DNA from: Nocardia nova SH22a | Lineage (GTDB): Bacteria > Actinomycetota > Actinomycetes > Mycobacteriales > Mycobacteriaceae | Assembly (NCBI RefSeq): GCF_000523235.1 | Contig: NZ_CP006850.1 | Location: 5,084,001-5,148,000, forward strand | Reading direction: 5' to 3' | DNA: 64,000 bases | Shown: positions 28,630 to 60,365 of the stretch, in pieces | How positions within the stretch are numbered: the stretch's first letter is position 1 | Layout: each line of letters opens with the position of its first letter | Made by a program: the position numbers and the translations under genes | Notes under the pieces: generated by a model | Seen by the model: only the letters and a program-made list of their open reading frames with translations | Told to the model about the DNA's origin: nothing | Databases searched by the model: none

Positions 28630-29058
28630 ATGAGCACACCAGACGACTGGAACACCCAGATCATCGACGAGTTCCGGGCCAATCAGGGCCGCGTCGGCGG
28701 ACCGTTCGAAGGTGCCCCGATGCTGCTGGTCCACCACCGCGGCCGCAAGAGCGGACGCGAAACCGTCACTCCCGTGATGTATATGCCCGACGAACGCCGC
28801 CTCGACACCATCTATATCTTCGCCAGCAAGGCCGGCGCCCCGACCAACCCCGCGTGGTACCACAACCTGACCGCCGCGGGCACCGCCGAAGTCGAACGCG
28901 GCACCGAGAAATACCCGGTCACCGTGGAGGAGATCACCGGCGAGGCCCGCGACCGGATCTACGCCGAACAGGCCCGCCGGTACCCGGGTTTCGCCGACTA
29001 CGCCGAGAAGACCGCCGGTATCCGGACGATCCCGGTCCTCGCACTCCACCGCGCCTGA
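28630..29058 (+). CDS. Deazaflavin (F420)-dependent nitroreductase-family protein
   Basis: A 142-residue Ddn/FDOR-B-like protein. VHHRGRKSGRETVTPVMYM and the NPAWYHNLTAAG segment with PGFADYAEKTAGIRTIPVL are typical of the family, which binds coenzyme F420 in Mycobacteriales and reduces quinones or nitro compounds. It lies 63 bases after the methyltransferase gene. A 74-bp palindromic element starts 15 bases after the stop. Confidence 0.92.
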   Translation: MSTPDDWNTQIIDEFRANQGRVGGPFEGAPMLLVHHRGRKSGRETVTPVMYMPDERRLDTIYIFASKAGAPTNPAWYHNLTAAGTAEVERGTEKYPVTVEEITGEARDRIYAEQARRYPGFADYAEKTAGIRTIPVLALHRA

Positions 29059-29073
29059 ACGAACGGGAACAGG

Positions 29074-29147
29074 CGAACGAATCGTGCACACCGCGAGGAA
29101 ATATCGGGAATTCCCGAAATCGGGGCGCGGTGTGCACGATTTGTTCG
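29074..29147. repeat. 74-bp palindromic element, copy 1
   Basis: Outer arms 29074-29095 and 29126-29147 pair at 21 of 22 positions, and the centre holds a 14-bp perfect palindrome TCGGGAATTCCCGA (29104-29117). A second copy of identical length occurs at 59564-59637 with about 57 of 74 bases matching by hand count. Copy 1 lies exactly between two convergent genes. It may be a non-autonomous mobile element, a REP-type repeat or a bidirectional terminator. It has no clear target-site duplication. Confidence 0.75.
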
Positions 29148-29179
29148 GAGATACCCACGAGCGGAGAAAACGCGCGCCC

Positions 29180-30142
29180 TCAGCCCAGCGACCAGGGCGC
29201 CGCGGCGCGTTTCCCCGACCACCGCCGCGGGTCGCATTCGAGGGCGGCGCGGTTCCACTGCCCGAGTTCGGCTGCGGCCTCGTAGGTTTCGCGGAGGAAC
29301 TCGGCGACCGTCGCGTTCGGATCGTCCGCGGTGCGGACCGTTTCGTAGGGCAGGACGAACTCGCCCAGGTCGGCGGCGTAGGTGGCGCCTGGTACTCGCA
29401 GGTGGCGCTCGCGGTAGCCGTCGGGCTCGGGATAGGAGTAAGCGTAGAACGCGCCTTCGTCGCCGCCGCCGGGCCAGAAGCCGCAGCTGCTGAGTTCGTG
29501 GGAGTAGCCCTCCACCATCACCCAGTCGGCACAGTGCGGTGCGCCGCCACCGTGTTCGGGCGCGGTACGACCGGAGAAGCGGGTGCACGCCAGATCCATG
29601 GCGCCCCAATAGAAATGCACCGGACTGGATTTCCCGGTGAAGCCGGAACGGAACTCGCCGAGCAGGCGGTTGGCGTGCACGAGTTGCCGCCAGAACGTCT
29701 GCGCGGCGTCTGGATCATAGGAAGCGTGCCGGGTGTCCTCGGCGAACGGGATCGAGGGGTCGACCTCGTTGGGACGGCCCTGAATTCGTGTCTCGAGGCC
29801 GAGTTCGTCCAGGGCCCGCATGGTTTCGGAATAGAACTGCGCGACCGATTTCGGTTCGAGCGTCACGGCACGGGTCTCACCGCTGTCGGTGCGGATCACC
29901 AATCGGTGTGCGAGGAAATCGAATTCGATGTCGAACAGCCGATCACCGTAAGGAATCGCCGACGTCGTCAGCCCGCGCGGGCTCACATAGAGGGTGACCT
30001 GCCACCAGTGATTCAGCAAGGGCGCGTGCGCGAGCCGGACCTTGCCGACGATCTGCGTCCACATGTGCAGGGTCTCGCGGGTATCCGTCCAGTCCGCGAC
30101 CCGCAGTCGCGGCCAGGCGGTGGTCGAATCGGTCGCTGCCAT
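29180..30142 (-). CDS. DUF5996 family protein
   Basis: About 320 residues with the family's features: WPRLRVADWTDTRETLHMWT at the N-terminus, PLLNHWWQVTLYVSPRGLTT, the tract SSPVHFYWGAMDLACTRFSG and YSYPEPDG. No signal peptide or transmembrane segment. Function is unknown. The start at 30142 has GGAGGG upstream; another ATG six codons earlier is possible. It converges on the F420-type gene, with a palindromic element between. Confidence 0.85.
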   Translation of the reverse strand: MAATDSTTAWPRLRVADWTDTRETLHMWTQIVGKVRLAHAPLLNHWWQVTLYVSPRGLTTSAIPYGDRLFDIEFDFLAHRLVIRTDSGETRAVTLEPKSVAQFYSETMRALDELGLETRIQGRPNEVDPSIPFAEDTRHASYDPDAAQTFWRQLVHANRLLGEFRSGFTGKSSPVHFYWGAMDLACTRFSGRTAPEHGGGAPHCADWVMVEGYSHELSSCGFWPGGGDEGAFYAYSYPEPDGYRERHLRVPGATYAADLGEFVLPYETVRTADDPNATVAEFLRETYEAAAELGQWNRAALECDPRRWSGKRAAAPWSLG

Positions 30143-30349
30143 ATCGGTGGTTCCCTCCATCGCCGGTTCGATTCGGGTTCCGGACGCCGCGGAAGCCGCC
30201 GAGCCCGCATCAGTGGGATTGCGGGTTCACCGCCCCGATCGAACCGATACGGCTCACCGGCCACATTCGGACAACCGCCTTGCCGCGCACATCCGACACC
30301 GGAACAGTACCGCGCAATTCATCCGTCATGTGGTACCGCGAATCTGTCG

Positions 30350-57406: not shown

Positions 57407-59365
57407 TCAGCGCCCCGGTGCTGCGGAGGGTTTCACCGCTCGGGTGGGTGTGGTCGCCGTAGTGCTCGAACTACCCTGTGCCGGTGTCGTTTCCGCACGC
57501 GGCGCGACCTCACAGGCATTCGGCGCCGGGACTCCGGACAACCGCTCCCCCAGCCACTGCGTGGAGCCGAGGAAACCGTCGAAGTAGCCGAGAATGTGTT
57601 CACCACCCACGATGCTCTTCGTCGCGGGGACTCCGAGAGCGCATTGTTCGGCATAGAATTTCTCGGCATTCGCAACCGGCATCCAGGGATCGTGCAGGCC
57701 GTTGTAGACATAGATCGGCATGCCCGCCTTCTTGCCTTTCAGGCTCAATCGCCGGAACATCTCGTCGGCGAATTCGGTGTGCAGCGGATCGGCCATATTC
57801 GCCAGGGCCGCATACGGCACGAATATCCCGACATCGGCCATGGTCGAGCTGCACACGTCCTTGAGCGGGGAGATGGCCGCCCATTGCGCGAGATGATTCA
57901 TGCGCTCGAGGATTTCGGGATGTTCCCGGGCCAGCGCGAGAGTGACGGTCAACATCAGGCCCGAGGCGTAGGTGCCGTCGAAGGTCTTCGCGAAGGATTC
58001 GTAATCGCTGGGCAGGCCGCCCATCGCGGCGCCGGCCAGGAGGGGAAGCAGTTCCGGGGCGTATTCGCGCGCCAGCATGGCTCCGGCGTAGCTGGCGATG
58101 GCGCCGCCGGAATAGCCGGTCATCGCGAAACGGCTCTCGCCGAACTGATCCGGCATCAGGTGGCGTACCGCACGCACGGTGTCGAGCATGATGTGACCGG
58201 CCACGGTCGGCTCGGCGTAGGCCATCAAGGGTCCCTCGTGATCCGGGATCACCACCGCGTAGTTCCGGCTCGCGGCCCACATGGTCGGCGACGGAACGAA
58301 ATCGTTGCCGTTGCCGGAGGTCAGGTCGTATCCGTGGGAGAACACGTAGCCCGGAGTGCAGCGCCGGTTGAGTGCGTTGATCGGAGGCGCGTTCAGCAGC
58401 ACCGGGCGACTCCCCGGCCCGGTCCACCGGCCGAAGGGCAACAAGAGTGTCGCGGTTCCGAACGACGGCGCACCGGAGGAGTTCGTGGTCCGGAATTTCA
58501 GCTGTATCGCGCGTTGCACCGGGGTGAGCACCGTCAGGAAGACCATCGGCACCCCCGGCCAGCTGACATCACGCGATTCGATCACGTCACCGGGTGCGTA
58601 CTGCGCGAGATTGTCCGGTGTGGCGTCGAAGAACGGATCGCCGGTCGGACTGGATTGAATCCGATTCCACAACTCCTGTGTGTCCGTCAGCGCCCCGGGG
58701 TCGGAGGCGGCGGAGCCGATTCCGGGCAGGACCGCCGAGGGGGCCGGGATGTGGTCGTCGAGCCAGCGCTGGAACGGCGATGGTCCGGGGTTATGGGAGC
58801 CGGACGGTTCGGGGGACGTGGGGGCGGCAGGATCGGGGGACGCGGGGGCGGCGGGATCGGGGGCGGTTGGGGCGGCGGGATCGGCTGATGGCGCAACCTG
58901 ATCGGACTTGTTCGGGGCCGCTGGGCTGGATGTGGTCGGGGCCGCTGGAACGGGCGTGGTCGAGGCGGACGGATCCGACGCGGAGGATGCGGCCTGATCC
59001 GACGCGGAGGACGCAGCCCGACCTGACGCGGACGGCACAGCCTGATCCGTGGCGGAGGGGACAGACATATCGGTGGTCGTCGCCACGGCCCGACCGGACG
59101 GCGCCGCATGACCAGTGGTCGGCAGAACCCGATCGGAGGCAGACGGTGCCGCCCGCCCCGTGGTGGTCGGCACGTCCGGACCAGATGTGGTCGGCACAAG
59201 CCCCTCGGCGGCAGGCGGCGCGCCGGGATCGGGTTCCGGCGGTGTCTCCGGTCCGGCAGTGGCCGGTGCGGAAATCCCCGGCGGGTCGGCTACCGCGGCG
59301 CCGAGCCCCGACGCCAGCGCACAACCCAAAGCCATCGTGACCGCAACGCTCCGCAGACATTTCAC
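57407..59365 (-). CDS. Secreted LIP-family lipase with long low-complexity linker
   Basis: A 652-residue exported alpha/beta-hydrolase. A signal peptide (about 27 residues) is followed by an Ala/Ser/Thr/Pro/Asp-rich region of about 170 residues with imperfect PSASD/PAAPTSPDP-like repeats. The catalytic domain begins near QRWLDDHIPAPS. The nucleophile is in GYSGG (MTGYSGGAIAS), the acid in YNGLHDPWMP and the histidine in GGEHILGYF. This matches fungal-type secretory lipases (pfam03583) common in Nocardia and Mycobacterium. The linker may span the envelope. Confidence 0.88.
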   Translation of the reverse strand: MKCLRSVAVTMALGCALASGLGAAVADPPGISAPATAGPETPPEPDPGAPPAAEGLVPTTSGPDVPTTTGRAAPSASDRVLPTTGHAAPSGRAVATTTDMSVPSATDQAVPSASGRAASSASDQAASSASDPSASTTPVPAAPTTSSPAAPNKSDQVAPSADPAAPTAPDPAAPASPDPAAPTSPEPSGSHNPGPSPFQRWLDDHIPAPSAVLPGIGSAASDPGALTDTQELWNRIQSSPTGDPFFDATPDNLAQYAPGDVIESRDVSWPGVPMVFLTVLTPVQRAIQLKFRTTNSSGAPSFGTATLLLPFGRWTGPGSRPVLLNAPPINALNRRCTPGYVFSHGYDLTSGNGNDFVPSPTMWAASRNYAVVIPDHEGPLMAYAEPTVAGHIMLDTVRAVRHLMPDQFGESRFAMTGYSGGAIASYAGAMLAREYAPELLPLLAGAAMGGLPSDYESFAKTFDGTYASGLMLTVTLALAREHPEILERMNHLAQWAAISPLKDVCSSTMADVGIFVPYAALANMADPLHTEFADEMFRRLSLKGKKAGMPIYVYNGLHDPWMPVANAEKFYAEQCALGVPATKSIVGGEHILGYFDGFLGSTQWLGERLSGVPAPNACEVAPRAETTPAQGSSSTTATTPTRAVKPSAAPGR

Positions 59366-59563: not shown

Positions 59564-59637
59564 CGAAAAAATCGTGCAAACCTCGACGATTCAACGGGAA
59601 TTCCCGATAATACGGCGCAGAGTGCACGATTTATTCG
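59564..59637. repeat. 74-bp palindromic element, copy 2
   Basis: Same length as copy 1 at 29074-29147. The central palindrome CGGGAATTCCCG (59595-59606) and right arm GTGCACGATTTATTCG are conserved. The outer arms pair less well than in copy 1. The stop codon of the truncated ADP-ribosylglycohydrolase gene lies inside its right arm. Confidence 0.72.
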
Positions 59638-60260
59638 GCACGACGGCCGGAGCCATTGCGAACGGCTAGATCGCAGGCAATGGGAGTTCGCCGGTACGGT
59701 GTCGCCCCGCCCAGCAATTCGCCGGGCGCACAGTCTTTTCCGCGAACCGCCGCGGCATGGGAGGCCGCGACGGCGATCGCCATGGCGCCCACGATCGCCT
59801 CCGGATGACGGTGGGTGACCTCGGCGGACAGCGCGGCCTGCGCCGCCGCCCGGTCCGGATTTCCGGCGAAATACGCCCCGAGCGGAGCAACCCGCATCGC
59901 GGCGCCGTTCCCCCACGAGCCGCGCCCGCCGAAGACGGCACCGGCCGCATCGGCCCAGGCGCGCCCGTCGCGAATCTCGTGCAGCACAACGACTGTGCCC
60001 GGACCGTAGCCACGATAGGGCTCACACCGATCGGCGAACGCGACCGCGAGCGCATCACGGTCGATACGTCCGCGGCCGAGAACTTCCGCATACACCGAAC
60101 AGGCCATCTCGGTGTCGTCGGTCCATTGCCACGGAGGTTGCGGTGGACGCCCGGCGTGAAGGTCGGATACGGAACGGCCGGGAACGAAGAATTGCGCATC
60201 CAGCGCGTCACCGACGGACAAGCCCTCGAGGCTGTCATGCGCGGTATCGAGGTTCAGCAT
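59631..60260 (-). CDS. ADP-ribosylglycohydrolase-like protein, truncated
   Basis: 209 residues from ATG at 60260. The N-terminal motif WTDDTEMA and the GNGAAMRVAPLGAYF segment are typical of DraG-like ADP-ribosylglycohydrolases, which use two metal ions. The family is normally 270-300 residues and its C-terminal metal motif (an Asp-x-Asp-Thr type) is missing; after KDCAPGELLGGATP the sequence is non-conserved and stops within the 74-bp element. Probably inactive. Confidence 0.75.
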   Translation of the reverse strand: MLNLDTAHDSLEGLSVGDALDAQFFVPGRSVSDLHAGRPPQPPWQWTDDTEMACSVYAEVLGRGRIDRDALAVAFADRCEPYRGYGPGTVVVLHEIRDGRAWADAAGAVFGGRGSWGNGAAMRVAPLGAYFAGNPDRAAAQAALSAEVTHRHPEAIVGAMAIAVAASHAAAVRGKDCAPGELLGGATPYRRTPIACDLAVRNGSGRRAE

Positions 60261-60365
60261 GTGCGGACAACTCTGCCAACAAAAGTCGGCCGCCACAAGA
60301 CTCGGATGTGCGATCAAACTCCGCTCGCCTCTGACCACCGGCCGAAGCAGTCCCCCGGTCAGCGG

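Follow-up and report, generated by a model that had tools for sequence, protein, structure and literature searches.

Two palindromes of 74 bp lie in the 64,000-nucleotide stretch of the Nocardia nova SH22a chromosome analyzed here (contig NZ_CP006850.1, positions 5,084,001 to 5,148,000; hereafter the window), and they raise the question of what kind of element they represent. By palindromicity they are the top two 74-mers of the window, with 60 of 74 bases in copy 1 and 54 of 74 in copy 2 identical to their own reverse complement, the next best reaching 48; copy 2 is also by a wide margin the segment of the window most similar to copy 1, with 57 identities against 39 for the next. The first-pass annotation had described them as equal in length, with a CGAA start, a TTCG end and a common core (CGGGAATTCCCG), and both copies do show all of these features; its match of about 57 of 74 bases, made by hand, was computed as 57 of 74. 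It had also suggested a dispersed repeat family, either a miniature inverted-repeat transposable element (MITE), a repetitive extragenic palindromic (REP) element, a terminator or a protein-binding site. The usual explanation for dispersed palindromes in bacteria is either a REP transposase or a role as terminators. From the comparisons presented here we favor, with a probability of roughly 0.45, a family of dyad-symmetric binding sites for a putative dimeric Nocardia protein.

Both palindromes are members of a family spread over the chromosome of this genome (G000 in our set; a single contig of 8,348,532 bases). A BLAST search with copy 1 revealed full or near-full copies throughout, and a 56-base pattern (CGTGCA, 16 bases, CGGGAATTCCCG, 16 bases, TGCACG, with up to three mismatches) found at least 35 copies, the reversed control giving 0. 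Matches to this pattern in 17 other genomes among 148 searched comprise both true elements and matches by chance. A pattern blind to the core (CGTGCAAACC, 24 to 52 bases, GGTTTGCACG) had matches in 10 of the 148 Nocardia genomes, at up to 26 places in each and with a control of 0, and a fixed-gap version run over genome contigs returned 111 stretches; the 80 that were listed all came from Nocardia, namely N. nova, N. kruczakiae, N. cerradoensis, N. aobensis, N. elegans, N. africana, N. veterana, and Nocardia sp. BSTN01. A sequence-only model built from 50 of 65 non-redundant copies, with up to 32 candidates scored per genome, had hits at E 0.001 in 16 of 150 Nocardia genomes; with both strands counted, it gave 11 matches in the relative G079, compared to 35 copies in G000. 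Finally, TCGTGCA and TGCACGA separated by 42 to 46 bases occurred at least three times in 13 of 148 Nocardia genomes, the reversed control giving at most two. The suggested family is therefore supported, with 35 copies in G000, further copies in the N. nova group and differently spelled versions in a small number of other Nocardia; the contrary outcome, only two copies and arms lost in relatives, clearly did not occur.

Beyond the genus, the exact TCGTGCA pattern (gap 43 to 45) had no more than two matches in any of 272 genomes from other genera of the same family, like its control, in a search that covers these exact letters and is silent on families spelled otherwise. Phage and plasmid records contained no blastn match to the element consensus at E 0.1, and viral contigs no exact match to the arm pattern of the relatives. 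Searches of an open library, limited to titles, listed none on such a Nocardia repeat family, and in the part of a tagged REP repeat survey available to us (PMC3733652) a term search found no mention of Nocardi-, Mycobacterium, Streptomyces, Rhodococcus or Actinobacteria.

The copies follow one plan. From the outside inward, each half has an outer block (GAAC), then TCGTGCA, then a weaker inner arm (AACCTCGnCG), and lastly its half of the core, and this order is mirrored in the other half; the two or three bases just outside each end are strongly G/C. In the 58 arms of 29 G000 copies CGTGC and CGGGAA are nearly invariant, with a variable stretch between them, while the usual reading in relatives is TGAACTnnTCGTGCAAACCTCGnCG, followed by the core and then the inverse of the first part. 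The spacing is almost constant: with the gap left free between 24 and 52 bases, 72 of 75 distinct listed places had one and the same length, corresponding to 56 bases between the arm ends, and the three exceptions measured 53, 54, and 57 bases (-3, -2, and +1), the shortest being L066, which bears an apparent insertion-sequence scar. Among the fetched loci, identical spacing was seen in 175 of 178 detections (157 distinct sequences, some sites having been fetched twice), a count for which the scan ranged over only two bases on either side and many loci had been fetched by a fixed-gap pattern; the same scan gave 0 detections on one shuffled set.

Within this plan the letters differ between lineages. 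The core CGGGAATTCCCG was present in 26 of 33 G000 copies and in 0 of 125 distinct copies from relatives, the center being GAAAAC or GTTTTC in 77 of the latter. When G000 copies were collected through half-sites, blind to the core, 19 of 26 uninterrupted ones still carried exactly CGGGAATTCCCG by our own count. The genome G115 mostly shows TGGCATTT-TCGTGCA and TGCACGA-AAATGCCA (20 pattern matches, 14 sites read), G116 has GTATGC-like ends (10 pattern matches, 4 sites read), and G019, G011, G074, and G073 offer one or two examples each of the same plan in other letters. The copies of G115 (L226-L238), a separate lineage, form a family of their own, about 77 bp long, mostly with TGGCAT/ATGCCA ends and with an inner arm GTTCG; two of them, at L229, lie 267 bp apart. 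Two further elements, one of them degraded, are separated by 189 bp at L102:1909-2170, resembling a local duplication of an element with its flank. In G000, an asymmetry between arm types A and B was borderline (23 of 33 opposite pairs against 18.4 expected, p 0.05, the types having been set post hoc), and with origin and terminus assumed the arm types displayed no replichore bias (12 versus 10).

If pairing of the two arms were under selection, a change in one arm should be matched in the other. In the 29 G000 copies, arms of the same copy agreed at 9.0 of 17 inner positions and arms of different copies at 9.19, with 14641 of 20000 permutations doing as well; in 50 aligned copies pairing was 71.3% against 71.4% after shuffling (306 of 500 shuffles as high). 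The 32 non-redundant copies from relatives even fell below the shuffle level (999 of 1000 shuffles reached the observed value), largely because centers such as GAAAAC are not self-complementary. No covariation of the arms was thus found, and therefore the palindrome is maintained by common letters and not by pairing. A hairpin RNA as the conserved property was rejected, since none of the three tests revealed compensatory changes in the arms. Both copies of the window do fold strongly as RNA on the + strand (-49.6 kcal/mol, z -8.5, for copy 1; -25.9, z -4.3, for copy 2), as was the case across all six strands tested, because the arms are conserved; Rfam gave 0 matches at the gathering threshold within the window.

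Constraint on the letters became visible at orthologous sites. From 510 flank-matched rows, 23 distinct pairs were retained that have 74 bases between their flanks and whose flanks are not both more than 99% identical. In these, differences per site amounted to 0.035 in the core (positions 33-37), compared to 0.135 at positions 20-32 and about 0.15 over the 15 flanking bases closest to the element, while arm positions 9-19 showed 0.026 and positions 2-5 showed 0.087. The core thus changes about four-fold more slowly than its neighboring positions; the patterns that yielded most of these loci contain the arms and not the core. At some sites the letters have shifted within one lineage: the G000 copy L029 has an ortholog, L153, with different interior letters and core, and the G000 copy L018 has an orthologous counterpart, L175, again with a different core. 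L153 is assigned to N. nova, since its element is identical to G133:C68:20677-20732 and the coordinates of G133 match those of L103, the record of N. nova NBRC 15556.

The elements are also placed unevenly relative to genes. Orientations were taken from a crude, G+C-based gene finder at 150 independent sites, 36 of them excluded from the classes (17 at locus edges, 12 within a predicted frame, 7 far from genes), and compared with random placement in 1.2 Mb of G079. Of the 114 classed sites, 51 lie between convergent genes, where 17% would be expected (p 1e-11), 43 between tandem genes and 20 between divergent ones, the last not significantly fewer than the expected 24% (p 0.10). Gene starts within 40 bp are avoided (7 of 83 neighbors against 35% expected, p 4e-8), and gene ends within 40 bp were found for 62 of 145 neighbors against 34% expected (nominal p 0.03). 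The idea of a regulon was dropped, as the neighbors are mostly unrelated genes. In two lineages, pairs of elements flank a gene that we labeled by eye as XRE-type (L072:1280-2875, L131, and L053; 5350554-5352379 in G000). These genes were considered as a shared link, but the two proteins have no significant match to each other, and the arrangement is possibly a coincidence. L067 (G079:C1:1438246-1438319), among the best-scoring elements of the copy-poor G079, adjoins a gene resembling one beside an L072 element; its product looks like a protein of the AbiEi/DUF559 type.

The exact center of the dyad serves as the target of an insertion sequence. In G148 four copies (L204:1735, L205:1774, L206:1781, and L207:1771) carry an interrupting insert, about 150 bp long and with the ends GGGCTGTTGC, which is flanked on either side by the six central bases (GAAAAC or GTTTTC) as 6-bp duplications. 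Uninterrupted orthologs are available for L204, L205, and L207, with 74 bases between the flanks in relatives and 229-230 in G148. Two more copies, L208:1742 and L209:1740, run into another insertion with a GGGCTGTTGC end at contig ends, L153 being the uninterrupted counterpart of L209, and the same kind of insertion start is seen in the G000 half-copy L034. The transposase was not found; the 83-base end of the insertion is present, among 11 genomes, only at two contig ends; neither this end nor the short insert matches plasmid records. Insertion sequences have been reported to target REP palindromes, which, in the part of that work on which we draw (PMC1525189), are likewise repetitive and hit specifically; here, unlike there, the target is the exact 6-bp dyad center of a 74-bp element, in an actinobacterium.

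Conserved blocks at fixed spacing and constraint at orthologous sites with no constraint on pairing, as expected of a family of dyad-symmetric protein-binding sites, were all observed. A putative protein would read the element as double-stranded DNA, in two symmetric halves at a nearly fixed distance; a dimer or tetramer that contacts both halves would need each half to present identical blocks in identical order and spacing. Lineages could then vary the outer block, the inner arm and the core, which may be called a dialect, yet keep TCGTGCA and about the same spacing. Locally, such binding might insulate or stop transcription between convergent genes, or it might structure the chromosome. A wider version of this proposal is less likely than not as a whole: a Nocardia-specific, chromosome-wide system of 74-77 bp dyads anchored by a constant TCGTGCA and read by a putative multi-domain protein, with outer and core dialects that would shift at many sites within one lineage (L029 and L018 against L153 and L175), serving insulation or chromosome organization mostly between convergent genes.

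Several observations weigh against a binding site. Spacing is looser in G103 and G148, where five of nine copies have 74 bp and the others 64, 72, 72, and 76. The G000 set was found mostly via copy 1 and is biased to its core; several search patterns included the arms, whose conservation is therefore partly built in; and the 23 ortholog pairs are non-independent and drawn from few species. Only 1 of 62 predicted proteins near remote Nocardia elements matched any of 436 near elements of the N. nova group and G000 (E 1e-10), and no candidate for the cognate protein emerged among the genes neighboring elements. None of the 30 loci fetched around the copy-1 neighbor genes in relatives has a credible element. 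In G079, which at one locus is the closest relative (85% versus 79-81%), the site of L029 is empty, with 12 bases between its flanks, and a second G000 site, L027, is also without an element, the flanks being kept in both cases; such turnover of copies would equally be expected of a mobile element. L221, a third orthologous site, still has in G000 the GTTTTC center of the relatives, and therefore the core shift of G000 is incomplete. From the sequence, an enzyme copying the element cannot be distinguished from a protein that serves the host.

A small, non-autonomous mobile palindrome, similar to a REPIN or MITE and copied by a putative enzyme that recognizes the outer arms and the core, so that the dialect would follow the enzyme, is a serious rival, which we consider somewhat less probable than a binding site; the two overlap, because a copying enzyme would also bind the arms. 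The dialects, the difference in copy number between G000 and G079, and the missing elements around the copy-1 neighbor genes in relatives all fit such a mobile palindrome. The known anatomy closest to the present family is the REPIN (PMC3116915, as far as the part available to us describes it): both are palindromic, intergenic and present in tens of copies of similar length, with conserved inverted ends and a more variable interior, but here the middle of the spacer, the core, is conserved too, the length is nearly constant and the outer block is lineage-specific. REPIN spacers are described in the same source as showing compensatory changes, of which these elements show none, and the Y1/RAYT family (PF01797) had no match in any of the 10 element-bearing genomes tested, the single match among 16 genomes searched falling in G003, which is itself without an element match. 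Both results speak against a REPIN/RAYT system in the genomes tested.

With MITEs the elements have in common that they are short, dispersed, bounded by inverted repeats and without a gene of their own. A target duplication was not found at 102 independent sites, where 150 combinations of length and offset (0-4 outside the ends) were tried and the best was equaled by 17 of 300 shuffles, which is chance level; it is the G148 insert, unlike the element itself, that has 6-bp duplications as a MITE would. A larger relative with the same ends was not seen either, as judged by position only: the 53 exact half-site matches in G000 form no inverted pair closer than 15 kb besides the full elements. On these findings a classic MITE is not supported. 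One empty site, L145 (N. nova), compared to L111 and L150, looks like a deletion and not an insertion, and at the sites of L014 and L010 in N. aobensis the element is missing along with further sequence.

A bidirectional terminator, whose RNA hairpin would halt transcription from either convergent gene, is improbable, even though the strong folding of copies 1 and 2, the enrichment between convergent genes and the position near gene 3' ends would all suit it. A terminator needs pairing and not letters, whereas here it is the letters that persist, with no selection on pairing; the long stem of copy 1 is not followed by a T-tract, and within this copy its small core alone resembles a terminator; and divergent sites are not significantly fewer than expected. 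Least probable is a set of passive remnants, old copies in decay with no present role, whose blocks would be mainly an artefact of detection. The use of the arms in search patterns and the absence from G079 of copies that G000 has, including one shared with a relative (L153), would be compatible with decay. This explanation is already weakened by the slow change of the core in ortholog pairs, as the core lay outside the patterns for most of the relatives' loci, and by the prevalence of CGGGAATTCCCG in the core-blind collection.

The binding-site reading remains because two defining features of a REPIN, the transposase and compensatory changes, and the target duplication of a MITE were not found and a terminator would not need these letters. 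Among the four labels of the first-pass annotation, it is thus the protein-binding site that fits best, a terminator is possible by position, and neither a classic MITE nor a REP/REPIN element is supported. parS and matS likewise comprise many similar dyad sites that are recognized as double-stranded DNA and spread over the chromosome; unlike them, the present element is much longer, has lineage dialects and shows no replichore orientation bias. What makes the family unusual is an anatomy like that of REPINs that comes with no REP transposase, hairpin covariation or target duplications in the genomes and sites tested, and with a constrained core. If a protein does bind, these elements would represent a repeated long dyad site with a lineage-specific recognition code, in which the co-evolution of site and protein could be studied; at minimum, they can serve as lineage markers and as a target of insertion sequences that is known to the exact base. 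The features of the two copies in the window are listed in Table 1.

Table 1. The two palindromes of the window, their conserved blocks and the genes beside them (positions within the window)
Feature	Position	Strand	Remarks
Copy 1, 74-bp palindromic element	29074..29147		
Outer block GAAC, copy 1	29075..29078		Right partner GTTC 29143-29146; kept across copies (aligned positions 7-10)
TCGTGCA block, left, copy 1	29082..29088		Block common to remote Nocardia families
Core CGGGAATTCCCG, copy 1	29105..29116		Central 6 bp GAATTC, counterpart of the insertion-sequence target in a relative
TGCACGA block, right, copy 1	29133..29139		
Copy 2 of the element	59564..59637		
TCGTGCA block, left, copy 2	59572..59578		
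Core CGGGAATTCCCG, copy 2	59595..59606		
TGCACGA block, right, copy 2	59623..59629		
F420H(2)-dependent quinone reductase family gene	28630..29058	+	Stop codon 15 bp left of copy 1
DUF5996 gene	29180..30160	-	Converges on copy 1, stop 32 bp away
Secretory lipase (LIP) gene	57407..59365	-	Start about 200 bp left of copy 2
Truncated ADP-ribosylglycohydrolase gene	59631..60338	-	TAA stop within right arm of copy 2; covers profile positions 3-194 of 287

The gene contexts given by the first-pass annotation agree with this table. Copy 1 lies between convergent genes, the quinone reductase family gene and the DUF5996 gene. Some match to these neighbor genes is present in 18 of 20 relatives searched, some of the left-gene matches being possibly paralogs, and 8 element-bearing relatives match both genes, always apart, on other contigs or, in G079, at a distance of 0.45 Mb. 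At 29058-29183, copy 1 thus marks a gene junction not seen in these 8 relatives. Copy 2, as had been proposed, is located at the 3' end of a truncated gene, the ADP-ribosylglycohydrolase gene. It has an ortholog in L175, where two blocks on the left side are 86% and 78% identical and an element with a different core is in place; the right side, which in G000 is formed by the truncated gene, differs from L175.
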